A stretch of 29,557 nucleotides of DNA, taken from positions 1 through 29,557 of IMG/VR virus record IMGVR_UViG_3300017765_000027. One strand, given 5' to 3'. The notes beneath the pieces are model-generated. The model did not search any database, was not told where the DNA came from, and was given only the letters and a program-made list of their open reading frames with translations. Numbering within the stretch: position 1 is the first letter of the stretch; every line of letters begins with the position of its first letter. Origin of the DNA: a virus. Below are positions 3,501-29,557 of this stretch, in pieces. A program made the position numbers and the translations under genes.

Positions 3501-6500
3501 AATAAAAATGCGCTTGCTTTATCTGCATACCACTCTTCAAATGGGAAAGCTCTGTCTTGATAATTATATCCGGGCTCGCCCCTTACTTCTCTAGTAAATA
3601 ATGCAAAAGACTCATCAGCATAAGCTCTATACAAAGCTTCTCCTTTTTTAAAATCTGCTTCGGTAATCCCAAGGTCTTCTATAAATTCTTCACTACCATA
3701 CCGTCCACCTCGTTCTTCCGAAAGAAATCTACTAAGTCCAAGTCTTGCACTCTCAAATTTAAATAATACATGTCCTAATTCATGCGCAAGTGCATAATTC
3801 ATAAAAGTGCTTTTAGCAGCATTTTGGACAAGGGGGTCTTGATCTTGTAACTGGTTTTCTATAAAAGCAGAATCTGGGTTAAGAACTACAAACGCATATT
3901 TTGGTAGTCCTTTAAGTGGTCCGTCATTATGCATTACACTTAAAACAGATGCGGGTTGGCCCGAAGCCCTATTACTATTCTGCATATTCCTAACTACCAT
4001 ATTTAAAGGTGCACCAGTTGTAGTTTTCATGTCGGTTGGAAAATTAACTTCATCATCTAAACCTAAAACAAACACTTTTGTCGTTACTCCAAAACCTTTC
4101 ATTTTTTCAGACAATTTACTAATAAAACGTTCACCAGAGGTATCGCCTACATCTTTAGTAAATTTTGGATCTTTAATATCAAAAAGATTTGCAATCCCTT
4201 GACTTACTTTTATTTCTCCCAACTCCATGTCTATTGCGTCTGGGTCGGTTTCAAATTTAGTATTAAATACAGGTGTTCCTTTGTACGCTGCGCCTTCTTG
4301 CCCTTTAACTTTTACAGGGGGTTGCGCTAAGATTATTCCTTGTGCTAACTGCGGAAAAATATCCATTAGCATTTTGTTACCTAAATCTGTTTGTTCTACA
4401 GTTGCGGCTACCTCACTTATGGGTGTTTTTTCCATAGGAATGCTACGAGGTTTCGCCATGGTATAAGAAGAAGCTCTTGAACCTGCGCCGTTTAAAACTT
4501 CTATATTGTTATCTCTTATAAAGTTGGTTATTGTCGCTGCTGAAGTTCCGGGATTAACAATTAAAAAAGGTTTACCAAGTTCTTCAGCAAACTTAACGGT
4601 TAGTCGAGAACCGCTGCCGAGTGACCCATCTTCTTTAGTCAAAATAATAGTACCGTCAGAATCTTCAACGTTTTTTCTAGTTCTTGGTGGGTACTCTGAG
4701 GATTCTCCTTCTACTACATTAAACTGAGGCCCTAAAGAAAGACTTACTCCACCTTCTACTTTAAAACCTTTTGGAGCAGTACCACCAGTTTCTAAACCCA
4801 TCGCTTTTGCCATATAAAGAAAAAACTGGTCACCACCAAGTTGCCCACCTGATATTATTCTTTTTAATGGTGTTTTTTCATTTAATTTATCTAAACTACT
4901 TTGTTCTGCTTCTGTTAAAGTTTTACCGTCTTGTACTTTCTTCAATAGAGCTGCTTGTCTTTTTCGATCTTTTCTAGGTTGTTCCTCTTTTTCTAGTCTT
5001 AAACGCATTTTTTGTTGCTCTTCCGCTGCTTGCGCTTGTCTTTGTAAACTTACAGGGTCTCTTTCTAAAGACGAATCAATTGGGGGTGGAGACAATGTAG
5101 CACTTTCAAACCTTGCATCGCCTCGTAAACTCATTTCGCTTGGGATTAAAGGGTAGCGTTTTTCTTTTTGTGCCTCGGTTCCTTCTAAAACTAAATCTTT
5201 AGATTCTGTTACAAAAATTTTCTTACCATTTCTATATTGAGGTACTGCATGTCTGACTGGAGGAAATCCAATAGTTTCTTGCGGGGGTTGCGCTCCTAAA
5301 GGACCTTGAAAATCTTGGTCATCCCCGACAGCTTCTCTCATATCTTGATCTCCACCGAGAGGTTTTTCTAAATCAACTTTCTTGAAATCTCCAAACTCAG
5401 TGTTCAACTCATATTGTAAATTGTTGTACTGATACTCTAACTTTGTTAACTGTCTACCGATTGATTTTTGTCGCTTAATTAAACTTCCACGTTCTTTTTC
5501 GGATATACCACGATTTTTTATTTGGGTCTCTAAATTTGCGTATAGTTTGCTAACCGGCGCTATCTCTGCTTCTAAGTCTGCTAACTCATCCAATCTGCTG
5601 GTTAAGCTTTTAATACCCCTTGTAGGTATGGTAAATAAAGACTCGCTACCACCTTCTTCTATATATCTTTTACGAGCTAGACTATTAGCAAGGGCGTTTA
5701 TGTCAGATTTATCAACAAATATTCCAGCTGTAGTAGCAAACCCTATTCCACCTAGCTCTTGTTTTACATCTTTTAAGATATCTAAATATTTTTGAAATTC
5801 TAAGGAACTTACCTCTCTCGCTTCTATCGATCCAGTTAAAGAAAATTGTTGTAGCTCGATTGGACTAAGTAATTGTGCAGGTTTAGTTGGGTCTATTCTT
5901 CTATAAAACATCGGTACATCTGCTAAATTTTGACCCTCAGTACTTACGAGTTTTGTTTCATTAGTCATTGGTGTGTAGAGGTCTTCTTTCATAACCACTT
6001 CAAACCCATACTTTTTAAACTCCGCAAAAATTTCGGGCACCATAGTCGCTAAAGCAATGTTATAGGCTCTAGTTCTATTACCTCCTACACTTTGTAAGAG
6101 CTCTTCTATACTCATAGTAAAATCTTGTTTTATTTGAGGAAAGATTTTTACTGCTTGAGTTAATAAAGTATATAAATTAATAGCTACATCATTCCCAGCA
6201 AAATTAACTTCTTTATCTCCATACCCTATAGTGGCACCCGCTTCTGCATTCGTACCTCTTATTTTAAAATAGGAACTAGCCTGTGATACCTCACCCCCGC
6301 CTGTCGTAGATAAAAATTTAAAACCTTCTATAACTGCTGTTTCAACTAAATCTAAAACTCTAGCTTCTACAGTTTGCGGCTCAAAGGTACCAAAAACATA
6401 AGCATTGGCATCGTCGGGATCTTGAATAATTGTTAAATCAGGACCAATCTCTGGGTCTGTACCAGCTCGGCTATCTCGTTGCCTAAAGTATTCTCTTAAT

Positions 6501-12215: not shown

Positions 12216-12773
12216 CTATCCTGTATACCTATTAGAGAAAGGGTTTTCCGGATTCATGTTTGACCATGTTTGGGCCCCAGATTTACTAGCCGCACCCCCA
12301 ACTTTACCTATAGCTCCCATAATATTTGTTGCTCTGCTCAATTTAGCAGTCATTCTATTTAAATCTTCGGATCTAGCTAATTTAGATGCTTGCGCTAAAC
12401 CACTACCTGCGTCAGCTTGTTGACCCCTAGCAGTAGCTAAAACCCCAAGTTGTTGATTAGCTTTTACATCTGAGGCAACTACATTAGCATTTAAAATATT
12501 ACCGACTGCGCCTAAAGCCCTATCTGCTGCAGTATCTACACCGGAAGCTATGCCTAAGTTAGGTCCAGCTCCTGTAGTTGCTTGCATAGTATCTGCCTGT
12601 GCACGACCACGTAAAGTAGCATGAGTATCAGTTTTTAATGACTCGTCACGCATTTGCCTTAATAAAGGATCATAGGTCTGTTCAAAATATTTTTGATCAG
12701 ACCTTGCTATAGCCGCTTGAGTTTTTTCAGTCTCACTTGGCTTATATTCTTCCGCTTTTGGTTTACTACCCAT
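12216..12773 (-). CDS. Small Ala-rich helical virion protein, unrecognised
   Basis: A 185-residue Ala/Gln/Thr-rich protein beginning MGSKPKAEEYKPSE, with a helical region at residues about 15-60 and a Gly/Ala-rich tail containing IMGAIGKVGGAAS near 150-162. No enzyme motif is visible. It starts at a TAATG junction with the GNAT-like gene and ends five bases before the S74-containing gene, so it belongs to the same operon. Short Ala-rich helical proteins at this place in short-tailed phages are often internal virion (ejection) proteins. I do not recognise the family, and the role is inferred from position. Confidence 0.55.
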   Translation of the reverse strand: MGSKPKAEEYKPSETEKTQAAIARSDQKYFEQTYDPLLRQMRDESLKTDTHATLRGRAQADTMQATTGAGPNLGIASGVDTAADRALGAVGNILNANVVASDVKANQQLGVLATARGQQADAGSGLAQASKLARSEDLNRMTAKLSRATNIMGAIGKVGGAASKSGAQTWSNMNPENPFSNRYTG

Positions 12774-19329: not shown

Positions 19330-20978
19330 TAAGAACTCATAGCTGATTTACGTTTATCACTCTTGACTAGATCTTTAAGTTTATCTCGCCAAGATGGTTC
19401 ATGTTCTATCTTCTCTACAAAAGTAGCGAATTCTGTCATCATTAATCCTATCCATGCTAACGCATCCACTTGGTCATCATGTACCCCGTTTGGAAAACGC
19501 AAAAGTTCCGCAATCAGCGGACCAACCCATACCGGATCTTTCGGAAAGTATACCATGCCTTGTTGCATTCTACCTTGTATTGCTCTAGCTCTCGCTTCCT
19601 TGTCTCGTCTACCTACTTTTAAATCTTTAAAGTAAGCTTCGTTAAGTCCACGTTCTCGAACACGTTTTTGTAGAAACGGACCTAAGGCCATCTCTATATG
19701 ACCCTTCTCGATACCCACAACATGTGGTCGCCAAGTTTCATACAAATCTAAGATCTGTTCAACAAGTTCAAAACCGTCATACTTCCCTCGTATACAATCT
19801 ACTACGTATAAATTATCGTATTCATCAACGCCAACAACTACTCCTACAGAGTAGTCATTACGTTCTCGTTGACCAATCGCTAAATCCCATGCGCAATAGA
19901 ACCGTAATCTGTCAAAGTCTACTTCATTTTCGTCGTAATACCTAATCATTTCTCGATTAAAGTACTCACCTTCGTCCGATACTGGGTTTTGTTGATATAG
20001 CGCTGACCAGTCTCTCGGACCTACCGCTTTTTGAATCTGGGTCAGAGCTTCTGAGCTGTATCTCTCTGGGTGAAGCGCGTCGCCCTTTTCTCTAAACTCT
20101 TCGTCCTTCTCAGCGAGGGCTGGATACTTAACAACTTCCCACTGATCCGCGCCCGCGGCTGCTGCTTGTAGCAACCTACCAGCTAAATCATCATCGTGCC
20201 ATCGGGTAAGAATTACGAGTACACCACCACCCGGAGCGAGTCGTGTATACGCAGTAGATGTATACCAGTCCCAGACTGCATCCCGATTGTACTCGGATTC
20301 TGCGTCCTCTCTGTTCTTAACTGGGTCATCGATGACTAACACGTGCGCTCCTTTACCGGTAATACCACCACCAACACCCGCTGCTACATAACCACCGCCC
20401 TTGGTTGTATTCCATGATTCTACGGACTGCGAACTAGGGTCGAGCGATACACCAGAAAAGACATTTTTAAAATTAGGTTCTCTCAGTTGATGACGAACCT
20501 TACGACTAAAGTTCATGGCCAACGATCCAGAGTACGAACAACTAATAAACTCATGTTCAGGGTTCTTGCCCAAATGCCAAGCTGGAAACGCAACAGAAGC
20601 CAAAGTAGATTTACCATGTCGGGGTGGCATAAACAACATAAGTCTAGGTGACTTTTGATTATTTACATCTTCACTAAACTTCTCCAACCGTAGACATATG
20701 TCCTTGTGTACCCAACCCGGAACGTAGTCTGGATTGAAACGCTCAACGAATGGTAACAAGTGTTTACGGGCCAAGGCTCGTAAGGCAAGTTCTTTTTGGG
20801 CTTTTAATTGTTCAGTTTCTTCTGGAGTTGGTTCTTCTATAGGTTCTTCAATTACAGGTTCTTCAACTCTTTCTGCTTCGTCCGCTTTACAGTACACGCA
20901 GATCTGATCGTCGCTCGGGTACAACGTATCTGGGTGTAACGCTTTACACGTTAGGCATTCAATCTTTTTTATTTCCAT
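19329..20978 (-). CDS. terL: Terminase large subunit with N-terminal four-cysteine extension
   Basis: A 549-residue DNA packaging motor. The ATPase has a Walker A motif PPRHGKST at about 118-125 and a Walker B VLVIDD at about 213-218. The RNase H-like nuclease begins near AWDLAIGQRERNDYSVG and ends with HDDQVDALAW near residue 510. The N-terminus is unusual: Cys8-x2-Cys11 and Cys27-x2-Cys30 form a possible zinc ribbon, followed by an acidic Pro/Glu-rich linker to about residue 56 before the usual domain. An in-frame TTG one codon upstream is less likely than this ATG. The gene overlaps the 83-residue gene by about 20 bases and is coupled to the portal gene. Confidence 0.92.
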   Translation of the reverse strand: MEIKKIECLTCKALHPDTLYPSDDQICVYCKADEAERVEEPVIEEPIEEPTPEETEQLKAQKELALRALARKHLLPFVERFNPDYVPGWVHKDICLRLEKFSEDVNNQKSPRLMLFMPPRHGKSTLASVAFPAWHLGKNPEHEFISCSYSGSLAMNFSRKVRHQLREPNFKNVFSGVSLDPSSQSVESWNTTKGGGYVAAGVGGGITGKGAHVLVIDDPVKNREDAESEYNRDAVWDWYTSTAYTRLAPGGGVLVILTRWHDDDLAGRLLQAAAAGADQWEVVKYPALAEKDEEFREKGDALHPERYSSEALTQIQKAVGPRDWSALYQQNPVSDEGEYFNREMIRYYDENEVDFDRLRFYCAWDLAIGQRERNDYSVGVVVGVDEYDNLYVVDCIRGKYDGFELVEQILDLYETWRPHVVGIEKGHIEMALGPFLQKRVRERGLNEAYFKDLKVGRRDKEARARAIQGRMQQGMVYFPKDPVWVGPLIAELLRFPNGVHDDQVDALAWIGLMMTEFATFVEKIEHEPSWRDKLKDLVKSDKRKSAMSS

Positions 20979-21210
20979 CAATCTCTAGCTCTGCTTCAGT
21001 TTCAATAACTACTCTAGCTCCGCAGGGTAGGATAGGTTTATCTGTACCACTATAACGAACAATAGAATCACCTTTTATAGTTACTTCATGACAATAGGTA
21101 TTGTTCTTACCTTCTTTCACAGTTATAACTGGCTCATTCGTACCATGTTTTAAGTTAGCCTTTATTTTATGTTGGTTAACGTGAATGTATTTAATCTTTC
21201 TTTTCTCCAT
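20959..21210 (-). CDS. Small hypothetical protein between terminase subunits
   Basis: An 83-residue protein beginning MEKRKIKYIHVNQHKIKAN. It is beta-rich, with alternating hydrophobic and charged residues (EPVITVKEGKN, HEVTIKGDSIVRYSG, GARVVIETEAELEID), and lacks any catalytic motif I recognise. It overlaps the small terminase gene at its start by 20 bases and the large terminase gene at its end, so the three are expressed together. Its place suggests a packaging accessory or a decoration protein, but this is only inference. Confidence 0.6.
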   Translation of the reverse strand: MEKRKIKYIHVNQHKIKANLKHGTNEPVITVKEGKNNTYCHEVTIKGDSIVRYSGTDKPILPCGARVVIETEAELEIDGNKKD

Positions 21211-21706
21211 CCTTTTTAGGCATAAGATATTGGTTATCAGTTCCCGCTATCTTGAGTAATTCAGAATCTGGTAGTTTTTCTAGTTGTTCTACAGTTCTAT
21301 CCAGATTGATGTTGATTTGTGTAGCATGCTCTGGAGCAAATAGACCGTGGAGCTTGCACAATGAATCGGTGATAACTTTCTCTTCTGTCGCTGTTACCGA
21401 TTTACGGTGCGCTTCTAAGTACATGCTTGTCGCTGTTTGTTTATCAAACTTAATTTCTTCTTTAAACTCTTCGCGCATCTTAGCAATCATCTTTTGTACT
21501 GCTGGTTTTTTAAATACTTTATAAACATGCTCATTATCCCTATATCCAGCTGCGCGTCCCGCTGCAGCTTTCGACATGCCACGGAGATGAAAAAGGATGA
21601 GGCGTTCTTCTTGAACACTTAGCTCATTAAGCTTGACATCGACATAGGGATAATGAGACTGAAGCTCGGCCCTTTCTTGTTCAAAATTTTGGTCTTTATC
21701 AGTCAT
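21191..21706 (-). CDS. terS: Terminase small subunit
   Basis: A 171-residue protein. Residues about 28-62 hold a helix-turn-helix typical of small terminases (LSVQEERLILFHLRGMSKAAAGRAAGY), followed by helical oligomerisation segments (PAVQKMIAKMREEFKEEIKFDKQTATSMY and KVITDSLCKLHGLF) and a charged tail ending PKKDGEKKD. It recognises the packaging site in the phage genome and loads the large subunit. The start overlaps the HNH gene by eight bases. Position one small gene before the large terminase supports the call. Confidence 0.78.
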   Translation of the reverse strand: MTDKDQNFEQERAELQSHYPYVDVKLNELSVQEERLILFHLRGMSKAAAGRAAGYRDNEHVYKVFKKPAVQKMIAKMREEFKEEIKFDKQTATSMYLEAHRKSVTATEEKVITDSLCKLHGLFAPEHATQININLDRTVEQLEKLPDSELLKIAGTDNQYLMPKKDGEKKD

Positions 21707-22184
21707 TTTCTTTGGATTCTACTATATTTTTAGCCCACCAATAAAGCTCATCTTCTTTTAATGTGTGTTTTATTATATTTGCTCTGCTACAAACCAGCTG
21801 AATATTGGTGACTAAATACTCAATATCTGGATCTATTCGATCAATAGAAGCGTTTAAACCTCTAGTACCACTACCATCTTTATGGTACGTCATAAACAGA
21901 CCGGTCAATGCACACTTACCTTTTTGTTTATCCCATAACTCTAAAACATCTTCTAATTCAATATCCCAAACAACTTTAGATTTTTCTTTTTTAGTTCTCG
22001 CGTGTTTAAGTTGGCCAAATAAACGAGTCAAATAATTTTGGGGTGTTGCGCTAGCATTCTTTCGTCGCACTGCATAACTACAAGCTTTACATTTTTTTGA
22101 GTGGACTTGTCCACGATCATTTGAGGTTTTAAATTCCTCTAGGGGCAGCTCCTTTTTGCAAGAAGTACATTTCCTCGTACTCAT
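21699..22184 (-). CDS. HNH endonuclease with N-terminal zinc-binding motif
   Basis: About 161 residues from the chosen ATG (MSTRKCTSCKKELPLEEF). Cys6-x2-Cys9 and a later CKAC pair near residues 33-36 form a possible zinc knuckle. The HNH core lies in the C-terminal half: KCALTGLFMTYH, then LNASIDRIDPDIEYLVTNIQLVCSRANIIKHTL, where the Asp, His and Asn-type positions of the family are recognisable. HNH proteins beside terminase genes can be needed for DNA maturation by the packaging motor in some phages; they can also be homing endonucleases. The first possible codon is a GTG at 22202, but the ATG at 22184 gives the usual N-terminus. It is the first gene of the minus-strand operon. Confidence 0.75.
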   Translation of the reverse strand: MSTRKCTSCKKELPLEEFKTSNDRGQVHSKKCKACSYAVRRKNASATPQNYLTRLFGQLKHARTKKEKSKVVWDIELEDVLELWDKQKGKCALTGLFMTYHKDGSGTRGLNASIDRIDPDIEYLVTNIQLVCSRANIIKHTLKEDELYWWAKNIVESKEND

Positions 22185-22206
22185 GCTTGCCCACTGTAGC
22201 ACAAAT

Positions 22207-22216
22207 TTTTACTAGA
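22207..22216 (-). promoter_or_regulatory. TCTAGT element upstream of the minus-strand operon
   Basis: The minus strand reads TCTAGTAAAA here, 23 bases before the ATG of the HNH gene, inside a run of A/T tracts (22205-22240). It shares TCTAGT with the plus-strand promoter-like elements. It may be the promoter of the packaging and structural operon. The match is only partial. Confidence 0.3.
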
Positions 22217-22454
22217 AAATTTTTTTAGTAAAATTTTTTTCTTTACCGCTCACACAGGGTCCTACTATCACTATCACTGCTAGCCCCTTCCCCGATTCCG
22301 GTTTTGGAACCTTGTTTCTAATTTTTCGTAGTTGGAACCTTGTCAGGTACCTACTGGTGCATTTAACAAGGACATGGCTAAAGCCATGGCATCAGGTGTT
22401 GGTTACAACGCTCGCGCGTTGCACCACAACTTTGAGCGCATACATTTGTTTTAG
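22217..22454. other. Divergent intergenic region, left part: hairpins and short repeats
   Basis: No gene is visible here. It contains a direct repeat TTGGAACCTTGT at 22304-22315 and 22332-22343, a CTACTATCA word at 22262-22270, and two perfect hairpins: CATGGC/GCCATG at 22373-22388 and CAACGC/GCGTTG with loop TCGC at 22406-22421. The region lies between the two divergent gene sets and probably carries control elements for both. Confidence 0.45.
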
Positions 22455-22561
22455 ACTAACCTCCAGCGAAAATTAAACTGCAATGCAAAGCATTGTCGGG
22501 TTCGCCACAGGCGACCGCGCAACTGCGCTACCCTCAGTTTAATTTGTAGCTTACGGTTAGT
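22455..22561. other. Cloverleaf-like multibranch fold
   Basis: Two nested arms, ACTAACC (22455-22461) with GGTTAGT (22555-22561) and AAATTAAACTG (22470-22480) with CAGTTTAATTT (22535-22545), enclose three consecutive hairpins. These are CAATGC-aaa-GCATTG at 22481-22495, TCGCC-aca-GGCGA at 22502-22514, and GCGC-aact-GCGC at 22517-22528. The 11-pair stem is perfect. The arrangement could be a structured RNA on either strand or a DNA cruciform. It does not have tRNA arm lengths or conserved tRNA bases. Confidence 0.55.
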
Positions 22562-22584
22562 ACTATCATGCGCTTACTCTGTTC

Positions 22585-22627
22585 GCGTCACTACTGACGC
22601 TCACTTTCACTCGGACGTTCCACGTCC
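22585..22627. other. Two further hairpins before the first plus-strand gene
   Basis: GCGTC-actact-GACGC at 22585-22600 and GGACG-ttcca-CGTCC at 22613-22627 are perfect five-pair stems. They continue the chain of hairpins between the cloverleaf-like fold and the terminator at 22638. Confidence 0.4.
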
Positions 22628-22637
22628 TTCGTGTAGA

Positions 22638-22657
22638 GCCGAACACGTTCGGCTTTT
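22638..22657 (+). terminator. Terminator-like hairpin before the first plus-strand gene
   Basis: GCCGAAC-ac-GTTCGGC is a perfect seven-pair inverted repeat followed by TTTT. It lies just upstream of a promoter-like element, so it may insulate the gene from upstream transcription. Confidence 0.55.
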
Positions 22658-22661
22658 AAAG

Positions 22662-22671
22662 TCTAGTTTAA
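22662..22671 (+). promoter_or_regulatory. Repeated promoter-like element, copy 1
   Basis: The sequence TCTAGTTTAA lies 33 bases before the chosen ATG at 22705, directly after a terminator-like hairpin. The same ten bases precede other plus-strand genes at 23152 and 23700, with variants at 25036 and 24845. The shared position suggests a phage promoter. Confidence 0.5.
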
Positions 22672-22704
22672 ATAGGGTGTAATTAACTTTTTATGGAGAT
22701 TAAA

Positions 22705-23082
22705 ATGTTTATTTTTAAAACTCAATTTGGAGAAGAATACATCTGTGAGTGTGTTGTTTCTCAGTATCGCGATGGCGGTGCGTTTTCTCTTCAGTTGATT
22801 GGCGCTGAAGACTCGCCTTATGAAGGTGAGCCCATAGCCATGGCTACAGTGAATCTACCTCACTACAACGTAGGTAGAAACAAAGATGGTCGAGTCCTCA
22901 CCTTCATTAAGGACTGGTCAGAAAACCAAGGCATCTTGGACCAACTCGTTGAACAAAATAAAGTTGAGCGAGTCTGTCGTCAAGGCGAACCTGTTAGAGT
23001 CCCGACAGGTTATGTCCAAGCCGACTTGGTTGAAGTTGTTAGCCATCAATTGGTTGCTGACTTCGAGAACTATCATAATTAG
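22705..23082 (+). CDS. DUF4313-like hypothetical protein
   Basis: About 125 residues from the chosen ATG (MFIFKTQFGEEYICECV). A GGAG six bases upstream supports this start over the ATG at 22693, which lies inside the same ribosome binding site. The pattern of a short beta N-terminus, EGEPIAMATVNLPHYNV near 50-64 and VLTFIKDWSENQGILDQLVEQN near 72-93 resembles DUF4313, a small family found in mobile elements and phages with no known function. It is the first gene of the plus-strand set and stands alone, with hairpins on both sides and its own promoter-like element. Conserved Trp and Glu residues in the IKDWSEN block suggest a compact fold. Confidence 0.55.
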   Translation: MFIFKTQFGEEYICECVVSQYRDGGAFSLQLIGAEDSPYEGEPIAMATVNLPHYNVGRNKDGRVLTFIKDWSENQGILDQLVEQNKVERVCRQGEPVRVPTGYVQADLVEVVSHQLVADFENYHN

Positions 23083-23095
23083 GTAGTTCTCTGTT

Positions 23096-23139
23096 GGCGG
23101 ATAGTCACAGCTATTCGCCGACTCGACGCTCCGCGCCGA
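23096..23139 (+). terminator. Hairpin pair after the DUF4313-like gene
   Basis: GGCGGATAG (23096-23104) pairs with CTATTCGCC (23111-23119) with one G-U pair and a six-base loop. A second weaker hairpin follows, CTCG (23122-23125) with CGAG (23136-23139). There is no T-run, so termination is uncertain; mRNA protection is equally possible. Confidence 0.4.
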
Positions 23140-23151
23140 GCGGCAAAGAAA

Positions 23152-23161
23152 TCTAGTTTAA
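23152..23161 (+). promoter_or_regulatory. Repeated promoter-like element, copy 2
   Basis: TCTAGTTTAA lies 26 bases before the ATG of the four-cysteine miniprotein, directly after the hairpin pair. It is identical to copies 1 and 3 over ten bases. Confidence 0.5.
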
Positions 23162-23187
23162 GGTAAGTAAATATAAAGGAGATTATT

Positions 23188-23364
23188 ATGGACGAATGTG
23201 ACTTTTGTAACAATGAAGCAATTGAAACACTAACTTTTGGCTATGAAACAAGGGGCGGAAGTTATTGTGAAGACGGGCATGTTTCTGTGTGTAAAGATTG
23301 TATTAACGAGCTTGGCAGAGAAGGATGTATTGAAGAAATTAAAAAAGGTGGAGAATGGATATGA
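23188..23364 (+). CDS. Four-cysteine zinc-ribbon-like miniprotein
   Basis: A 58-residue protein, MDECDFCNNEAIETL at its start and ending KKGGEWI. Cys4-x2-Cys7 and Cys35-x2-Cys38 are arranged as in a small treble-clef or zinc ribbon, with acidic residues between. An AAAGGAG ribosome binding site lies six to seven bases before the ATG. Its stop overlaps the ATG of the next gene (ATGA). Such small zinc proteins in phages often bind host polymerase, nucleases or nucleic acid; the target is unknown here. Confidence 0.6.
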   Translation: MDECDFCNNEAIETLTFGYETRGGSYCEDGHVSVCKDCINELGREGCIEEIKKGGEWI

Positions 23365-23471
23365 AAAATCTAAGTTATAGAAGAAAGAAACAGATAGCTA
23401 ATGAATTATATCTTTACAGGTATATGATGTTCTGTGTTTTGGGTTTTTGTATTGGCTATTTTGTAGGTTAA
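23361..23471 (+). CDS. Tiny membrane protein (36 residues)
   Basis: The peptide begins MKNLSYRRKKQIANEL and ends in one hydrophobic segment (MMFCVLGFCIGYFVG, residues about 22-36). The basic N-terminus before a single membrane helix predicts the N-terminus in the cytoplasm. It is coupled to the four-cysteine miniprotein by an ATGA overlap, so the pair may work together. Tiny proteins like this may be superinfection or membrane-modifying factors, or lysis-related, but nothing shows which. Confidence 0.5.
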   Translation: MKNLSYRRKKQIANELYLYRYMMFCVLGFCIGYFVG

Positions 23472-23479
23472 TCTCCCTT

Positions 23480-23505
23480 GGGGCGAAACGATATAGTTTC
23501 GTCCC
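23480..23505 (+). terminator. Hairpin after the miniprotein pair
   Basis: GGGGCGAAAC (23480-23489) pairs with GTTTCGTCCC (23496-23505) around the loop GATATA, ten pairs with one G-U. It is placed nine bases after the stop codon. No T-run follows, so it may stop transcription weakly or protect the mRNA end. Confidence 0.5.
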
Positions 23506-23530
23506 TCAAAAATTTCAAGTCATTAATCAG

Positions 23531-23593
23531 GGTGTGCGGACTGTGCCCACCTACTATCACGGTGTGCCGTCGGAGTGTGCCCACCTACTATCA
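23531..23593 (+). repeat. Tandem repeat ending in CTACTATCA
   Basis: The 18 bases TGTGCCCACCTACTATCA occur at 23542-23559 and 23576-23593, 34 bases apart, each preceded by a GGTGTGC word (23531 and 23561). The nine-base end, CTACTATCA, also occurs in other intergenic regions at 22262, 24585 and 24607. Possible protein-binding sites. Confidence 0.55.
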
Positions 23594-23679
23594 TCATTTC
23601 TTTGTTGGGGACCTACCGCCCCAACGCGCTCGCGCTTCCAGCGCTCGCAGATCTTCGCTCCTTACCAGTCGCTCAGTAG

Positions 23680-23696
23680 GGAAATCGGAGATTTCC
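23680..23696. other. Hairpin with three-base loop beside promoter-like copy 3
   Basis: GGAAATC-gga-GATTTCC is a perfect seven-pair hairpin with a GGA loop, ending three bases before the TCTAGTTTAA element. The hairpin type resembles single-stranded-DNA hairpin promoters of N4-type phages, but no N4-type polymerase is visible in this window. Confidence 0.35.
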
Positions 23697-23699
23697 AAA

Positions 23700-23709
23700 T
23701 CTAGTTTAA
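23700..23709 (+). promoter_or_regulatory. Repeated promoter-like element, copy 3
   Basis: TCTAGTTTAA precedes the 73-residue gene by about 59 bases, a longer leader than the other copies. A terminator-like hairpin lies inside that leader. Confidence 0.5.
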
Positions 23710-23720
23710 TTGAATTGGTT

Positions 23721-23741
23721 GGGAAGTATTTCCCTTTTTTT
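23721..23741 (+). terminator. Attenuator-like hairpin in a leader
   Basis: GGGAA-gtat-TTCCC is followed by seven T. It lies between the promoter-like element and the ATG at 23769, so it could reduce or control readthrough into the operon. The stem is short (five pairs). Confidence 0.4.
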
Positions 23742-23768
23742 AAATATATATATTACACGGAGAATATC

Positions 23769-23990
23769 ATGAGTAGTATTGTACTAAAGGTTTGTAGACC
23801 CTATGAAACTACCGACAAAGACGGGAATGTCGCTAAAGCAACTCGTTGGCCTTCCATTGGAAGAATTGTAACCCTTAAGAACGGTAATCAGAATATCCAT
23901 CTGGATTTCATGCCTGAAAAGTCTACTGACGGTCAGGGTTTTGAGACAATGTTCGCATTCAAGGAGCAAGGTAATGGGCAACAAGATTAA
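23769..23990 (+). CDS. Small hypothetical protein (73 residues)
   Basis: The protein begins MSSIVLKVCRPYETTDKDGN and ends GNGQQD. A GGAG lies eight bases before the ATG. A longer reading frame extends upstream to 23478, but it runs through hairpins, the tandem repeat and the promoter-like element, so the start at 23769 is preferred. The sequence is beta-rich with alternating strands (RIVTLKNGNQNIHLDFMP at about 32-49), which fits a small single-domain protein. Its end overlaps the next gene by 17 bases. Function unknown. Confidence 0.6.
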   Translation: MSSIVLKVCRPYETTDKDGNVAKATRWPSIGRIVTLKNGNQNIHLDFMPEKSTDGQGFETMFAFKEQGNGQQD

Positions 23991-24297
23991 ACTTGTCAAA
24001 GAAGGCACTAAGTTTGTTGGTAAAGCAACAGATACAGTCTTTTATTGGCTAGGTCGTGGTTTGGAGTCAAGCAATCAACTACTTGATAAGGCTAAAGAGT
24101 CCACACGCCATGGCATTGCTTCAAAAAGGCAAGACTCTGTAGCAGTTGAAGAAACTTTTGACCCTAAGTCAGAGTTTTTAGACTCTCTCAAGTCTTGGGT
24201 AGAGAAACCCGAAAATCAAGGCAAAGATATCCTTGATTATCAAACTGAAGACCCTGACGGGCTCTTCGCTAAACTAAAAGGAGAGTCTCATGACTGA
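23974..24297 (+). CDS. Small acidic/helical hypothetical protein
   Basis: A 107-residue protein from the ATG at 23974 (MGNKIKLVKEGTKFVGKATD), which has a GGAG eight bases upstream. The N-terminal half has a helix with FYWLGRGLESSNQLLDKAKE near 23-42. The C-terminal half is acidic and polar (EETFDPKSEFLDSL, then DILDYQTEDPDGLFAKL). It overlaps the genes on both sides (ATGA-type on the right), forming a three-gene unit ending with a tiny membrane protein. No family recognised. Confidence 0.6.
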   Translation: MGNKIKLVKEGTKFVGKATDTVFYWLGRGLESSNQLLDKAKESTRHGIASKRQDSVAVEETFDPKSEFLDSLKSWVEKPENQGKDILDYQTEDPDGLFAKLKGESHD

Positions 24298-24424
24298 GTT
24301 ATTCTATACTCTTGGTTGTATGTTCTTTATTACAACCATCTCAGCCCAGTGTATGCTCATATATACTTGGTTGAGAATGCATTATGACTTTGAGTCGTGG
24401 TTAAACGACGACGAAGAGAAGTAA
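24290..24424 (+). CDS. Tiny membrane protein (44 residues)
   Basis: The protein begins MTELFYTLGCMFFITTISAQ; one membrane helix spans about residues 4-27 and an acidic tail ends NDDEEK. The N-terminus is likely outside or in the membrane and the acidic tail in the cytoplasm, though that is only a charge-based guess. An AAAAGGAG ribosome binding site lies six bases before the ATG. It overlaps the preceding gene by eight bases and closes the three-gene unit. Confidence 0.55.
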   Translation: MTELFYTLGCMFFITTISAQCMLIYTWLRMHYDFESWLNDDEEK

Positions 24425-24431
24425 TTCTCCC

Positions 24432-24464
24432 CTAGGGCAGAGCTACATAGGTAGTTCTGTCCTT
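24432..24464 (+). terminator. Terminator-like hairpin after the three-gene unit
   Basis: AGGGCAGA at 24432-24439 pairs with TCTGTCCT with one G-U pair, beginning about eight bases after the stop codon. The flanks carry short T/C runs (TTCCTTTTC). Termination is plausible but not certain. Confidence 0.45.
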
Positions 24465-24516
24465 CCTTTTCGTTATCCGCCCTGCGCTTCGCTAGCCCGG
24501 AACCCCAGCCGACAAA

Positions 24517-24653
24517 GGTCACGACGCTGTCGTGGCCTATCTTTGGCCAAAGCAGAGCTTTGGCAGGTGGTCTCGGTGTGCCAACTACTATCATCGCACC
24601 ATAAGACTACTATCATCACGTAGTGATGTGGACTTCACGAGTAGTGGACCACT
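24517..24653. other. Dense cluster of palindromes
   Basis: GGTCACGAC-gct-GTCGTGGCC at 24517-24537, CTTTGGCCAAAG at 24541-24552, GCCAAAG-cagag-CTTTGGC at 24546-24564, CATCAC-gta-GTGATG at 24614-24628 and AGTGG-a-CCACT at 24643-24653 follow one another. Two CTACTATCA words lie among them at 24585-24593 and 24607-24615. No gene is visible. Replication or regulatory role is possible. Confidence 0.5.
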
Positions 24654-24681
24654 GTCTACGAGTCTTTGACGAGTGTCCGGG

Positions 24682-25005
24682 GTGTACCGGGTGTACCACC
24701 TTTGTACCAGCTGTAAAACAGCGTACCGGTACACCTACACCCCTTGTTTTTGCTGTGCTTTTTTCAAAAAAGCGCTAAGTGTACCGAGTGTACCACAGGA
24801 TTTGCGTTAGCTTTAGTAATCGACCGTGGACCGTGGTTATAGAATCTTAGTTTAAACTAACAATTAACCGGTACAAATGGTACACCTTCCACGAAACCCT
24901 GCTAACGCGGGGCTTACAGGTGTACCACCTGCTTTTTCTTCGTGGTACACCCAAACGTAGATCTGTAAACAAATCAATAACTTAGGGTGTACCACGGTGT
25001 ACCAC
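24682..25005. repeat. Iteron-like array of GTGTACC
   Basis: GTGTACC starts at 24682, 24691, 24779, 24788, 24920, 24987 and 24997; its reverse complement GGTACAC starts at 24728, 24879 and 24944. Most copies extend to GTGTACCAC or GTGTACCGG. Three pairs lie nine or ten bases apart, about one helical turn. A 14-base perfect palindrome sits in the middle (24847-24860). This is typical of protein-binding repeat arrays such as origins, partition sites or multi-copy operators. Which one is not shown. Confidence 0.65.
24847..24860. promoter_or_regulatory. Perfect palindrome containing the promoter-like word
   Basis: TTAGTTTAAACTAA is fully self-complementary and contains AGTTTAA of the shared promoter-like element; preceded by TC it reads TCTTAGTTTAA. 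It may be an operator bound by a dimeric regulator or two head-to-head promoter elements. Confidence 0.4.
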
Positions 25006-25035
25006 AAACGCGTCTTACCAGCCGCGTTTTATCAA

Positions 25036-25045
25036 TCTAGTTCAA
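25036..25045 (+). promoter_or_regulatory. Repeated promoter-like element, copy 4 (one change)
   Basis: TCTAGTTCAA differs from the main form by one base. It lies 26 bases before the ATG at 25072, the same distance as copy 2. Confidence 0.45.
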
Positions 25046-25071
25046 TTAAGTGTAATTAATGGAGAAATATT

Positions 25072-25203
25072 ATGAATGAATTAATGAAACATTTGGATGA
25101 AATGAAGACTATAAGTAAATTTACAGAGTCTGATTTGGAAATCCAATGCAAAATTAATGAAGAGTTAGCTCGTATGAAAGCTAGCTCAAATACAAATAGG
25201 TAG
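25072..25203 (+). CDS. Very small helical protein (43 residues)
   Basis: The peptide begins MNELMKHLDEMKTISKF and ends ASSNTNR. It is charged and amphipathic helical, rich in Met, Glu and Lys, and could form a short coiled coil. GGAG lies eight bases before the ATG, and copy 4 of the promoter-like element lies upstream, which makes expression likely despite the length. No family recognised. Confidence 0.5.
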   Translation: MNELMKHLDEMKTISKFTESDLEIQCKINEELARMKASSNTNR

Positions 25204-25229
25204 TCAATTACGGTATCTATTTACAGGTT

Positions 25230-25254
25230 GCATTTATGAAGGTAAATGCGTTTT
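25230..25254 (+). terminator. Terminator-like hairpin
   Basis: GCATTTA-tgaagg-TAAATGC is a perfect seven-pair stem followed by GTTTT, between the 43-residue gene and the 248-residue gene. Confidence 0.45.
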
Positions 25255-25285
25255 ATAAATCACTTTACTATATATAGGAGTTATT

Positions 25286-26032
25286 ATGAGTGAATATTTT
25301 GACCCAAGCGAACAAGAATCGAAAGAACTTGTTCCTGAAGTTAAATCTAAAATGAGTGACTACACAGAAGACACCATTGCAGATTCTGAAGGTGCAGAAC
25401 AACGTTCTGTGAAAGCATCAATCAGTCTACCTGATTTTTTCCATGTCAACTACAGGCTAGATGACACTGGTAACCCAACATTCAAAGATGATGTGGTTGC
25501 TAAAATCATGGCTATTTTTGACCAAAAGGTTGGTACTCAACCAACTTTTGAAGAAAAAGAAGGTCATGCACCAGTAGATGAGCAGATAGTCAAGTTTGAA
25601 GAATCAGTTAACAACATTGTTGTTGGCTTTCAAGAACTGACTATTGTTGACCCACAGTCAACTGGCTTGTCTTTCTTGCAACTATGCACCAGAACATGGG
25701 CAGAATTTGCAAGCATCTCTTACGATTATCAAACAGCTATGGCTAAAGCAGGCGATGAAATCCCTGACTGGTTGCTCGAGCGTGAACAAAAGATGTTTGA
25801 CCTTGGTCGTAAGGCAAGAATGATGTCTATGGCTCTTTCAGACCTTGACCATTCCTTTGGCTTGAAAGAAGTTTCAATTCAAAGAAACAGAGTTCAATCA
25901 GCAGTTGAGCAAAGATTGCAAAGACTTGCTGAATGGAACTTCAAACAGTATGCAGATACTTCTGGTAAAACAGCACTAAAACTTAATGGTGCAACCAAAG
26001 AGCATATGCAAACTATGTTTGATAACGCGTAA
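25286..26032 (+). CDS. Hypothetical acidic protein (248 residues)
   Basis: The protein begins MSEYFDPSEQESKELVPEV; the first 50 residues are acidic and probably disordered. The remainder is helical, with EESVNNIVVGFQELTIVD near 104-121, EFASISYDYQTAMAKAGDEI near 138-157, and a long basic/helical stretch RNRVQSAVEQRLQRLAEWNF near 204-223. GGAG lies six bases before the ATG. Codon use is less T-rich than the minus-strand genes, with frequent GGT/GCA/AAA. No family recognised. Its size and lone position with its own terminator upstream suggest a well-expressed early protein, but the role is unknown. Confidence 0.65.
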   Translation: MSEYFDPSEQESKELVPEVKSKMSDYTEDTIADSEGAEQRSVKASISLPDFFHVNYRLDDTGNPTFKDDVVAKIMAIFDQKVGTQPTFEEKEGHAPVDEQIVKFEESVNNIVVGFQELTIVDPQSTGLSFLQLCTRTWAEFASISYDYQTAMAKAGDEIPDWLLEREQKMFDLGRKARMMSMALSDLDHSFGLKEVSIQRNRVQSAVEQRLQRLAEWNFKQYADTSGKTALKLNGATKEHMQTMFDNA

Positions 26033-26043
26033 GCGTACAAAGT

Positions 26044-26171
26044 CCTACCGAGTTAATGTTTCGATTACTTGGTAGGCACAGAATTCGGCCCAATTTTCCC
26101 AATCAAGTCGAAGTTTAAGTAGCGGGCCGAGTAGGTTCAAAATAAACCTTTTCATAACTACTTAGACTTCG
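26044..26171 (+). other. Candidate structured RNA leader with interlocking stems
   Basis: Three inverted repeats occur in the gap before the 51-residue gene: CCTACC (26044-26049) with GGTAGG (26071-26076); TCGGCCC (26085-26091) with GGGCCGA (26124-26130); and CGAAGTTTAAGTAG (26109-26122) with CTACTTAGACTTCG (26158-26171), 13 of 14 paired as standard pairs. The third stem begins inside the loop of the second and ends outside it, so the two form a pseudoknot or compete. A smaller AGGTT/AACCT hairpin (26133-26149) with short T-run lies inside. It could be a cis-regulatory leader or a small RNA. Confidence 0.45.
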
Positions 26172-26190
26172 CATTAATACAGGAGAAGAT

Positions 26191-26346
26191 ATGCATCGTA
26201 GTAATCTACCAAGACCTTTTTCTAAAGGCGCAAGAACTGGCGACCGCAAGGTTATTTCATCAACTATAGTCAATGGTAAGACTGTGCAACAACAAGTTGT
26301 TTACTGTGCTAACGGCCAGTCAATTACCCGACACGAAAAGAAATAG
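26191..26346 (+). CDS. Small basic protein (51 residues)
   Basis: The peptide begins MHRSNLPRPFSKGARTGDRK and ends SITRHEKK. It is basic and beta-prone in the middle (VISSTIVNGKTVQQQVVY at about 21-38), which could be a small nucleic-acid-binding protein. AGGAGA lies six to seven bases before the ATG. It directly follows the structured leader, so it may be the controlled gene. No family recognised. Confidence 0.5.
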   Translation: MHRSNLPRPFSKGARTGDRKVISSTIVNGKTVQQQVVYCANGQSITRHEKK

Positions 26347-26367
26347 TTTTTTTGTGTGTGCGTGCTC

Positions 26368-26442
26368 GTACAAACACGCCTCCGGCCGCCTTTAGGCACC
26401 GCACTTCGTGCGTGCCGTCGGCCCGCCTACGGCGATTTGTAC
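26368..26442. other. GC-rich multibranch hairpin region
   Basis: GTACAAA (26368-26374) with TTTGTAC (26436-26442) and CGCC (26377-26380) with GGCG (26431-26434) close a stem around smaller hairpins, including CGCAC-ttc-GTGCG at 26400-26412. The stretch from 26347 to 26615 contains no convincing gene. Confidence 0.4.
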
Positions 26443-26477
26443 CTTCGCTCGCTCGTGGACCGTGGGCCCTGCAAAAA

Positions 26478-26506
26478 ATACGCCGAAGCAACCGGCGTAT
26501 CTTTTT
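26478..26506 (+). terminator. Strong intrinsic terminator
   Basis: ATACGCCG-aagcaac-CGGCGTAT is a perfect eight-pair stem followed by CTTTTT. On its left side is a run of six A, so it could also act on the minus strand. Confidence 0.75.
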
Positions 26507-26555
26507 GCTGGACTTGTACGACAAGTTAGTAAATCAAATTAAATAAAATCTATTC

Positions 26556-26571
26556 GCTCGTGCGAGCTTTT
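26556..26571 (+). terminator. Short hairpin with T-run
   Basis: GCTC-gtgc-GAGC followed by TTTT lies 45 bases before the ATG at 26616. It may be a weak terminator or a leader element; a related CTCGCACGTTCGCG follows. Confidence 0.3.
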
Positions 26572-26615
26572 ACCTCGCACGTTCGCGGAGAGTATGTATA
26601 TGTAGGAGTAAAATC

Positions 26616-26867
26616 ATGTCATTTTTACAAAAATTATTACCTAGTAAGTTGGGTATATTTAATAAATTAGGAGCTATTATGGCTACAAGAATGTTTAGAG
26701 CTACTTTTGTAGATTCTTTTTCACATAATACTATTGTGGTGGAGTTTGAAGCTCCATTTCCAGTAGATGAGCAAGTTGATTATAAGAAACTTGCGACCCA
26801 AAGGTTGGGCGAAATGATACGAAAAGACTTAGTCAAGATTCGTGATATTGAGCCCATTGAAATATAA
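26616..26867 (+). CDS. Small hypothetical protein with two possible starts
   Basis: 83 residues from the ATG at 26616, which has GGAG eight bases upstream. A second in-frame ATG at 26679 also has its own GGAG with ideal spacing, giving a 62-residue form beginning MATRMFRATFVDSF. The extra 21 residues are an amphipathic helix (SFLQKLLPSKLGIFNKLG). The core is beta-rich (TIVVEFEAPFPVDEQ) with a helix near LATQRLGEMIRKDL. It ends 21 bases before the MoxR-type ATPase gene, so may belong to that operon. Not recognised. Confidence 0.6.
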   Translation: MSFLQKLLPSKLGIFNKLGAIMATRMFRATFVDSFSHNTIVVEFEAPFPVDEQVDYKKLATQRLGEMIRKDLVKIRDIEPIEI

Positions 26868-26888
26868 CTATTTGATAAGAGGAGTACT

Positions 26889-27923
26889 ATGTCAGATACA
26901 ACAACTATGCAGACTGTTACAGCAACAGATCTCAAACAGGAGATACGCGATAACATGCGTATCGGACTTAACACTATGATCTGGGGCGGACCTGGTATTG
27001 GTAAATCCGAGATACCACAGCAAGTGGCTAATGAACTCGAGATACCATTACTAGATTTTCGTGCCAATCTATTCGACCCTGTCGATGTTCGTGGTATACC
27101 ACGAGTGGTTGATAATGAAACCTATGGTGCAATGACATCATGGGCTCCACCAGATATCTTTCCTACCGAAGAAACGCACGGCCCCCGTGGTTTGTTTATG
27201 ATTGACGAACTACCAACAGCACCACCTGCTACACAGAATGCGTTTCTACAACTTCTACTAACTCGTCAGGTTGGTAACTACAAAATGCCTGACGGTTGGT
27301 CATGTCTTGCCGCTGGTAATCGTCTAACTGACGGTGCCTCGGTTTACCAAATGCCCTCACCTGTAAGAAACAGACTGATGCATTACGAACTCGAACCTAG
27401 CTTGGATGCTTGGTGCGAGTGGGCGATAAAGAATGAAGTAAATACTACTTTAGTTTCTTTTATGCGTTATCGTCCTAACCTTTTGTACAGTTTCAAAGCT
27501 GATGAGTATGCTTTCCCTACTCCTCGAAGCTGGTCATTCGTCGACAAGCGTTTGCGACTAACAAAAAACATGGATGATTCAAGATTATTCTTTGGTATTG
27601 CTGGTGCTGTAGGCACTGGTCCTGCTGGAGAGTTTCTTGCGTTTGCAAAAATTGCAGACAAGTTACCAGATATTGATAACTTGATTGCTAATCCTAGTTC
27701 ATACATGCCATCGGAGGATCCGGCAGTATTGTATGCACTTACAGGTGCAGTGGCTTCTAGAGCGGAACAATCCAAACTAGAAAACATTATGAAACTTGGT
27801 AAGAAGATACCTACTGAGTTTCAGGTTGTTTTGGTCAAAAGCATTCTTGCAATTGACAAAGCATTATTTAATCAACCTACAATACAAAGCTGGATTTCAG
27901 ATAATTCAGATGTTGTACTGTAA
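26889..27923 (+). CDS. MoxR-type AAA+ ATPase
   Basis: A 344-residue ATPase. The Walker A motif GPGIGKS lies at residues 34-40, the Walker B FMIDE at about 103-107, and the sensor-1 Asn in AAGNRLTD at about 144. The LFDPVDVRGIPR segment after the first strand and the PSPVRNRL segment near 155-162, with the arginine finger, match MoxR-type AAA+ proteins. These ATPases work with von Willebrand factor A-domain partners to remodel or assemble target proteins. A partner of this kind is encoded two genes downstream. AGAGGAG precedes the ATG. In phages this pair is uncommon and its target is unknown. Confidence 0.85.
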   Translation: MSDTTTMQTVTATDLKQEIRDNMRIGLNTMIWGGPGIGKSEIPQQVANELEIPLLDFRANLFDPVDVRGIPRVVDNETYGAMTSWAPPDIFPTEETHGPRGLFMIDELPTAPPATQNAFLQLLLTRQVGNYKMPDGWSCLAAGNRLTDGASVYQMPSPVRNRLMHYELEPSLDAWCEWAIKNEVNTTLVSFMRYRPNLLYSFKADEYAFPTPRSWSFVDKRLRLTKNMDDSRLFFGIAGAVGTGPAGEFLAFAKIADKLPDIDNLIANPSSYMPSEDPAVLYALTGAVASRAEQSKLENIMKLGKKIPTEFQVVLVKSILAIDKALFNQPTIQSWISDNSDVVL

Positions 27924-27937
27924 CAACGGAGAAAATT

Positions 27938-28708
27938 ATGGCTACAGTTCGTATGTCAAACAAGCTCACAGTAGATCTCTGCAAAGAGTATGAAAAGAGC
28001 TACCAAAACACTAAACCAAAACCAGAGTACCCTGCGTCTCTAGGCGATGCTATCTATGACACTCATGTCAAACCTATTATTGACAGAATCAAAGAAGCTT
28101 CAAAGCTTGATAATGTAGAGTTCTTTGACCTTAGTCAAAACAGTGACGATTCATTCTTTATTAACGATAATGAATTGACCGTACAGTTTGAAACAAAGTG
28201 CTATGATCAAAGAGAAAGACCATCTGGTTATGAAGATTTGCCTTGGGAATTGCAAAACTTGGTTAAAGAGTATGAGTGTGTAATTGATACACCAGAATTG
28301 CACAATGCAAACATGCCTCTTTCGGTAGAGCAACCATTGATAAAAGGTAGTTCTTATCGAAGTCAATTGGCGTTTAATCTTTACAAAGCACCTCAAGACG
28401 AAACGGTTATTAAAGCTCTTGAAATATCTAAAGAGCGACACATGTACGACATCAACAAATCAAATGAAGTTGCTAAGTTTGCTAAGATGTTGCTTCGTTT
28501 TCAAACGCTTAATCAAGCATTGAAAGCATGGCCTGGCGGTGCTTTGGCAGCCATGGTGCAAAAAGTTGACCCAGATAAAATGGTAACTATTCACAAGAAA
28601 ACAGAGCGTAAAGCAAAAGCACAGCAAGACAAAGGTTTTGTCGAGCAACATGCTGGCGATTTCAACGCTGTGATTCTTGGTTCAACATTACTAGGAGATA
28701 ATGACTAA
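27938..28708 (+). CDS. Hypothetical protein between MoxR and VWA genes
   Basis: 256 residues, beginning MATVRMSNKLTVDLCKEYEK, largely helical. The N-terminal part has a faint likeness to the small Nmad5-type phage family (short helix, then LGDAIYDTHVKPIIDRIKEA near 36-55, a polar middle). Residues 195-235 are a basic helix (WPGGALAAMVQKVDP, then IHKKTERKAKAQQDK). CGGAG lies eight bases before the ATG. The gene starts 14 bases after the MoxR gene and is coupled to the next gene (TAATG), so it is almost certainly part of the same system: an adaptor or substrate is possible. The family link is weak. Confidence 0.65.
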   Translation: MATVRMSNKLTVDLCKEYEKSYQNTKPKPEYPASLGDAIYDTHVKPIIDRIKEASKLDNVEFFDLSQNSDDSFFINDNELTVQFETKCYDQRERPSGYEDLPWELQNLVKEYECVIDTPELHNANMPLSVEQPLIKGSSYRSQLAFNLYKAPQDETVIKALEISKERHMYDINKSNEVAKFAKMLLRFQTLNQALKAWPGGALAAMVQKVDPDKMVTIHKKTERKAKAQQDKGFVEQHAGDFNAVILGSTLLGDND

Positions 28709-29557
28709 TGGAAGATATTAAAACAGCTTTTACTCGAGCTCGTTCTACGTTGTTGATAATGCAACCGTTCTTCGGTACTCTCTGCCTTCGATTGGGGGCA
28801 GAGTTTACCGAAGACATTCCAACAGCGGGAACGAACGGCGAAAAGCTACTAATCAACCCTACATTCTTTCTCAAGTGCACAGCTGAGCAAAGAGTTGGTT
28901 TGCTTGCTCACGAAGTTATGCATTGTGTTTACATGCATGTACTGCGTCTTGGCGAGCGTGACCCGTTTCTTTGGAACGTTGCTGGCGACTATGTAATTAA
29001 TCTAGTCGTCACTGACTCTGGCATGATATTGCCTGAAGGTGGACTACTTGATGAAAAGTATCGTGATATGACTGCTGATGAGATTTACACCACTCTGCAA
29101 CAAAATGGTGGTGCAGAAGCATTGTCTGGTCTGTCTGACTTTGACGGTACTTGTGTACAACCTAACCCATCTTTGACAGACAGCGGTGCACAAAGTAAAC
29201 ACGAAGCAGATATGCGAGTTGCAGTGCAACAAGCCGCTGAGTCTGCTAAAGCACAAGGTAAACTACCCGGTAGTTTGTCTAAGCTTGTTGATGACATTGT
29301 GTCACCGAAAGTCAATTGGAAACAAAAGCTTGCACGATTTTTGAGAAGCAATAACAAGTCAGATTACAGTTGGCAAAAACCTAATCGTAGGTTCGTTGCT
29401 AGTGGTTTGTATCTGCCTAGTTTGTATTCACCATGTATCGAAGAGATTGGTGTCTTCGTTGACACTTCTGGTTCTCGTACTGATGAAGAGCTCAATCAAG
29501 ATCTAGGCGAGATATCTTCTATGTTGGTTGATGCTAATGTAGAAAATATACATTTCA
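28708..29557 (+). CDS. DUF2201-like putative metallopeptidase / VWA-domain protein, partial
   Basis: The first 283 residues are visible. A zincin-type motif HEVMH lies at 68-72, in the context LLAHEVMHCVYMHVLR and followed by WNVAGDYVIN near 89-98, as in the DUF2201 N-terminal putative metallopeptidase. The VWA-like domain begins near residue 247, with FVDTSGS; DTSGS at about 252-256 is the metal-ion-dependent adhesion site. Both halves match bacterial proteins encoded next to MoxR ATPases. The start overlaps the preceding stop (TAATG). The C-terminus lies beyond the window. In such systems the ATPase and VWA protein act together on an unknown target. Confidence 0.85.
   Translation, partial: MEDIKTAFTRARSTLLIMQPFFGTLCLRLGAEFTEDIPTAGTNGEKLLINPTFFLKCTAEQRVGLLAHEVMHCVYMHVLRLGERDPFLWNVAGDYVINLVVTDSGMILPEGGLLDEKYRDMTADEIYTTLQQNGGAEALSGLSDFDGTCVQPNPSLTDSGAQSKHEADMRVAVQQAAESAKAQGKLPGSLSKLVDDIVSPKVNWKQKLARFLRSNNKSDYSWQKPNRRFVASGLYLPSLYSPCIEEIGVFVDTSGSRTDEELNQDLGEISSMLVDANVENIHF

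Follow-up and report, generated by a model that had tools for sequence, protein, structure and literature searches.

Does the branched fold that lies between the divergent arms of an uncultivated phage genome act as RNA or as folded DNA, and what might it be for? The window, the whole stretch of DNA analysed here, is a dsDNA phage contig of 29,557 bases (39% G+C), with packaging and structural genes in a leftward arm and accessory and other genes in a rightward arm; a relative carries genes for DNA polymerase, helicase and exonuclease in its right arm. The left arm of the window also encodes a 2749-aa virion-type protein (593-8842) that contains a circularly permuted YpsA/SLOG domain and matches NADAR below threshold. 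The fold occupies about 140 nt (22435-22574) between the arms, with the following neighbours.

21699-22202, minus strand: left neighbour, endonuclease VII / HNH-type protein
22693-23082, plus strand: 129-aa gene immediately right of the element, weakly DUF4313-like

The true start of the 129-aa gene may be the ATG at 22705, behind GGAG, and its close homologues in the collection (at least 78% identity) were all found together with the element. Searches for similar DNA in phage records gave no near match for 20900-29557 and no distant match for 22370-22692.

Anatomy and stability of the fold

The initial annotation had described an 11-pair perfect stem (22470-22480/22535-22545), an outer seven-pair stem (22455-22461/22555-22561) and three perfect hairpins within 107 bases (22455-22561), and we found all of them at these places. 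The structure exceeds that description, having an extra stem (P0) outside and a GGGT/ACCC arm (P4) inside. As modelled, the overall architecture is a branched, cloverleaf-like one in which a three-stem stalk (P0, P1 and P2) carries a three-hairpin head.

22435-22441, plus strand: P0, outermost stem, 5' strand AGCGCAT, pairing with 22568-22574 in the fold of 22360-22692
22455-22461, plus strand: P1, outer seven-pair stem, 5' strand ACTAACC
22470-22480, plus strand: P2, 11-pair stem, 5' strand AAATTAAACTG
22481-22495, plus strand: P3, hairpin CAATGC-AAA-GCATTG, 6 bp, 3-nt loop
22498-22533, plus strand: P4, arm pairing GGGT (22498-22501) with ACCC (22530-22533) and enclosing P5 and P6, in the DNA fold of both strands
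22502-22514, plus strand: P5, hairpin, 5 bp, 3-nt loop
22517-22528, plus strand: P6, hairpin, 4 bp, 4-nt loop
22535-22545, plus strand: P2, 3' strand CAGTTTAATTT
22555-22561, plus strand: P1, 3' strand GGTTAGT
22568-22574, plus strand: P0, 3' strand ATGCGCT

The RNA fold of 22455-22561 reached -42.5 kcal/mol against a shuffle mean of -24.2 (z -5.98), with 0 of 200 shuffles equally stable. The minus strand gave -43.4 kcal/mol (z -4.4), and with DNA parameters the scores were -5.8 for the plus and -6.0 for the minus strand. A descriptor of the architecture built without the covariance model (a stem of 7 or more bp, a stem of 9 or more bp and an adjacent hairpin) matched once in 4.5 Mb of shuffled sequence. 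It also matched HTVC010P 12530-12638, which was rejected on a fold z of -0.3 and no covariance-model match. A scan of the window in steps of 40 (736 stretches, with 20 shuffles per stretch, so that single z values are rough) returned four other stretches with z at least as low, among them 28735-28844, inside a gene, and 23015-23124. The element is therefore extreme in its own genome and not unique.

Conservation of the stems among relatives

The element is present in eight other IMG/VR contigs (L002, L083, L085/L098, L011/L095, L006/L096, L005/L094, L004/L097 and the more diverged L084). Across six aligned sequences, variation fell on 1 of 88 paired positions and 16 of 52 unpaired positions (Fisher p = 3e-7). 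The sole varying paired position is 22441, T to G in L084; a CC insertion opposite compensates for it, so that P0 changes from GCGCAT/ATGCGC to GCGCAGG/CCTGCGC; in L089, P0 has one additional G-C pair. P1 is unchanged in every copy at this locus, the P3 stem is constant while its loop reads AAA, ACA, CACA or AGT, and one pair adjoining P6 varies between A-U and G-U on the plus strand. Uncompensated breaks of the stems, which the initial annotation had proposed to look for in relatives, were not found; the stems are preserved or compensated, as in a structured nucleic-acid element under selection.

Most relatives do not carry the element. Covariance models detected no copy in another 33 contigs, those linked through the terminase or the 129-aa protein, nor in six linked through a 248-aa right-arm protein, an absence that holds at this model sensitivity and for incomplete contigs. 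A core replication role is unlikely because some 40 relatives are without the element. The pattern AAATTAAACTG...CAGTTTAATTT gave four matches across the collection of genome contigs, all inspected and unrelated, and a loose core pattern proved too unspecific in viral contigs, the covariance model finding nothing at those loci.

A second copy with rewritten helices

The covariance model detected a second copy, copy B, in L084 (1885-2030, E = 2.5e-5), upstream of a gene for an AlkB-type 2OG-Fe(II) oxygenase (PF13532); copy A is the one at the locus described above. Copy B has the same architecture with most helices rewritten, P0 being GTCTAG/CTAGAC, P1 GTAATCA/TGATTAC, P2 TATTTACTG/CAGTAAATA and P3 CATACC/GGTATG, and it retains the GGG/CCC of P4 and the core letters around the head. 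Including copy B, we counted 14 compensated pairs (0 of 500 shuffles; slid controls no higher than 3) in an alignment that was fitted to the model and leans towards it, copy B being a single sequence. A shared core with rewritten helices points to selection on the architecture. The claim that nested pairing of this kind is not a product of chance thus stands on three legs: the fold beats shuffles, the stems avoid variation, and the paralogous copy is compensated.

The two copies in L084 flank AlkB, and each lies about 100-130 nt upstream of an accessory gene, DUF4313-like for copy A and AlkB for copy B. Both junctions are hairpin-rich and end in TCTAGTTTAA. At the place of copy B, L085-type genomes have just a short hairpin before AlkB.

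Two further features of L084 were observed. About 500 bp of repetitive GCTCGCTTCGCTCGC-type sequence (1385-1890) lies ahead of copy B; compared with shuffles, its plus strand is less structured and its minus strand more so. In copy A, extra hairpins inside P5 (2862-2893) contain the 11-mer TATTTACTGCC, which also occurs in P2 of copy B and suggests that sequence may have been exchanged between the copies.

A variable, hairpin-rich junction

In relatives, AlkB lies to the left of the element, and it is present, absent or relocated among otherwise similar genomes. The window lacks an AlkB segment of about 640 bp that is found in L085, L087 and L089, and this loss left its junction at an AAC microhomology, some 70 bases away from the fold. 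In L083, an AlkB-like gene occurs elsewhere in the genome. The element is retained in the window, L002 and L083 despite AlkB being lost or elsewhere, and L085, L087 and L089 have AlkB without a second copy of the element. Further hairpins and short motifs crowd the same interval.

22365-22367, plus strand: AAC junction at which the AlkB segment is missing
22373-22388, plus strand: flanking hairpin CATGGC-TAAA-GCCATG
22406-22421, plus strand: flanking hairpin CAACGC-TCGC-GCGTTG
22561-22568, plus strand: TACTATCA(T) motif, overlapping the 3' end of P1
22585-22600, plus strand: flanking hairpin GCGTCA-CTAC-TGACGC
22613-22627, plus strand: flanking hairpin GGACGT-TCC-ACGTCC
22636-22657, plus strand: terminator-like hairpin AGCCGAA-CACG-TTCGGCT, then TTT, from sequence and fold
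22662-22671, plus strand: TCTAGTTTAA motif, upstream of four right-arm genes in the window

The hairpin at 22613-22627 shows a compensated change from T-A to C-G among relatives. The terminator-like hairpin at 22636-22657 was not listed by a consensus scan. In the window, TCTAGTTTAA sites lie at 22662, 23152, 23700 and 25036, with TCTAGTT(T/C)AA ahead of four right-arm genes. L261 (2250-4480) has CTAGATAAA at places where the clade of the window has TCTAGTTTAA, and the distribution of the two by genome looks as if all copies within one genome change together.

Other repeats were noted in the same region. TACTATCA occurs in right-arm junctions of the window on the plus strand only (22263, 22561, 23552, 23586, 24586 and 24608), and the exact 9-mer TACTATCAT is confined to a single strand within each of the 13 related contigs searched. 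At 24670-25010, GTGTACC repeats cluster in both orientations beside two TACTATCAT sites 22 nt apart, together with a CATCAC/GTGATG hairpin; the arrangement recurs in relatives and looks like a replication origin region. Two TTGGAACCTTG direct repeats (22304-22314 and 22332-22342, 28 bp apart) belong to a stretch upstream of the endonuclease VII-type gene that is conserved across many relatives, and could possibly serve as an operator or packaging site.

Comparison with known families

ARAGORN found no tRNA or tmRNA in the window. Rfam 15 gave no gathering-level match in the window, and nothing up to E = 1 for 22400-22690 or the copy B region of L084. Two candidate classes were tried and rejected. 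N4-type hairpin promoters were set aside since the giant left-arm protein has no RNA polymerase match. A CsrA-sequestering RNA, considered because a CsrA-like protein is encoded (a small protein at L132 18830-19102 matches a CsrA-like regulator family of phages, phrog_9500), was discarded since the hairpin loops carry no GGA.

The STAXI motif (PMC2864571), a tandem pseudoknot described as structured RNA or ssDNA and found close to antirestriction and DNA-handling genes, resembles the element in its mobile-element setting and in the ambiguity between RNA and folded single-stranded DNA; unlike STAXI, the element is modelled here without a pseudoknot and matches no Rfam model. The start-associated sequences (SAS/ESAS) of Cluster K mycobacteriophages, which come with inverted repeats (PMC3203893), offer a parallel in that many genes are preceded by a short conserved motif and some of them have inverted repeats directly ahead. 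Their motif sequence and repeat anatomy differ, and the portion of that account considered here describes no counterpart to the branched fold.

RNA pairing and structure along the right arm

We compared features that bear on RNA as against DNA. The plus and minus strands are equally able to fold, and over the three copies the 135 defined helix pairs include no G.U pair; since the defined helices were chosen as perfect, the fairer count is 0-3 G.U pairs among the 45-63 pairs of free folds.

Coding sequences of the right arm are more structured than their synonymous-codon shuffles, with a mean z of -1.12 in sense and -0.81 in antisense, versus -0.38 for the left arm, about -0.1 for T7 and about -0.35 for HTVC010P on the same measure (12-25 shuffles per gene, which leaves single z values rough). 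The strongest excess lies beside the element, in the DUF4313-like gene (-2.75) and AlkB (-2.5). Right arms of relatives gave -1.06 (L097), -1.58 (L261), -1.04 (L265), -1.26 (L266) and -0.89 (L268), with sense structure stronger than antisense. Excess right-arm mRNA structure was thus recorded for the window (22693-29556) and for loci L132, L097, L261, L265, L266 and L268. In a gene-internal fold (28720-28860), 92% of cells stay paired with some G.U changes, and the covariation is weak.

It is possible, if short of probable, that the right arm of this whole uncultivated dsDNA phage family has been selected for pervasive mRNA structure, coding and noncoding, strongest beside the divergent region, and that the element is the first representative of a structured-RNA family there, one not covered by any Rfam model.

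A proposed structured RNA module and its alternatives

The conserved fold, its second copy, where it lies and the surplus of mRNA structure in right-arm genes are direct observations; transcription of the element and a stabilising or insulating action are what we infer. Our preferred reading, to which we give a probability of roughly 0.4, makes it a structured RNA module within the rightward transcript, stabilising or insulating transcripts at accessory-gene junctions. Transcripts arriving from the left would adopt this fold together with the adjoining hairpins before reaching the terminator-like hairpin at 22636-22657. In this way the RNA of one accessory gene would be shielded and kept separate from the following gene, for which TCTAGTTTAA and a subsequent ribosome-binding site seem to serve as a start module of its own. 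No upstream promoter was established for the element. We count in favour of the RNA module the fold energy far below shuffles, the spared stems, the compensated copy B, the location upstream of accessory genes, the excess sense structure of the right arm, the G.U pairs in the coding fold and the A-U/G-U pair beside P6. Against it we count the equal folding of both strands and the lack of G.U pairs in the defined helices, which fit a DNA-level structure too, as well as the short hairpin that is all L085-type genomes have at the place of copy B.

The main rival is a folded-DNA element: a cruciform or folded single strand recognised by a protein, comparable to attC or to another site of single-strand recombination or initiation, and placed where exchangeable genes begin or end. 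In integron attC sites, the stem base carries the core sites RYYYAAC and GTTRRRY. The element resembles them as a palindromic fold of variable sequence at gene junctions, with one genome (L084) having two copies around an accessory gene, and a DNA site would also suit the wholly Watson-Crick helices, the equal folding of the strands, the presence, absence or relocation of AlkB in otherwise similar genomes, and the adjoining endonuclease VII-type gene. Unlike attC, however, it does not have the core bases: GACTAAC is off at one position and GTTAGTA at two, and P1 of copy B has neither core. The single event seen, the AlkB deletion in the window, took place at the AAC outside the fold, and three genomes have AlkB with no second copy. 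Finally, no integrase or HUH protein was present among the scanned proteins of the L084 contig, a set that leaves out an 825-aa protein and several short ORFs and comes from incomplete genomes. On balance, we regard a folded-DNA site as somewhat unlikely.

A discrete trans-acting small RNA, or an antitoxin-like RNA for the next gene, would correspond to a noncoding transcript of about 300 nt running from the left junction to the terminator-like hairpin in AlkB-less genomes. Retention of the structure where AlkB is lost or elsewhere, the position of that hairpin after the structure, and the company that close homologues of the 129-aa gene keep with the element would agree with such an RNA. We consider it unlikely given that no promoter was established, Rfam gave no match, and tandem repeats of the type III toxin-antitoxin RNA kind are lacking; the linkage to the 129-aa gene may be plain synteny.

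It is similarly improbable that the element has no specific function and arose as a by-product while palindromes built up in a recombining region rich in hairpins. The four equally strong stretches in the window, the hairpins crowding the junctions and the many relatives without the element are what such a process might leave behind, but variation spares the stems, the outer stem of L084 is compensated, and the second copy combines a shared core with rewritten helices.

Nascent put RNA of phage HK022 binds the beta' zinc-binding domain of RNA polymerase and suppresses termination. A cis-acting antitermination RNA of this kind, whose nascent fold would modify RNA polymerase to pass downstream hairpins, is very unlikely. 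Like put, the element is structured and lies early in an arm, here where the rightward arm begins, immediately before the terminator-like hairpin and ahead of further hairpin-rich junctions. The put RNAs, however, measure about 70 nt, consist of two stem-loops and lie near early promoters (PMC9378689); the element measures about 140 nt and combines three nested stems with three hairpins, and most relatives do without it.

Implications for the phage family

Placed among movable accessory genes, the element has no match in any described RNA family. Under either reading, the covariance models and the two-copy comparison can be used as search material for later surveys. If the DNA reading is true, exchangeable phage genes would be bordered by a folded-strand site of a new kind. 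If the preferred RNA reading is true, it would provide a concrete structured element in a phage group known here from metagenomic contigs alone, and would point to an arm-wide excess of mRNA structure that is absent from T7.
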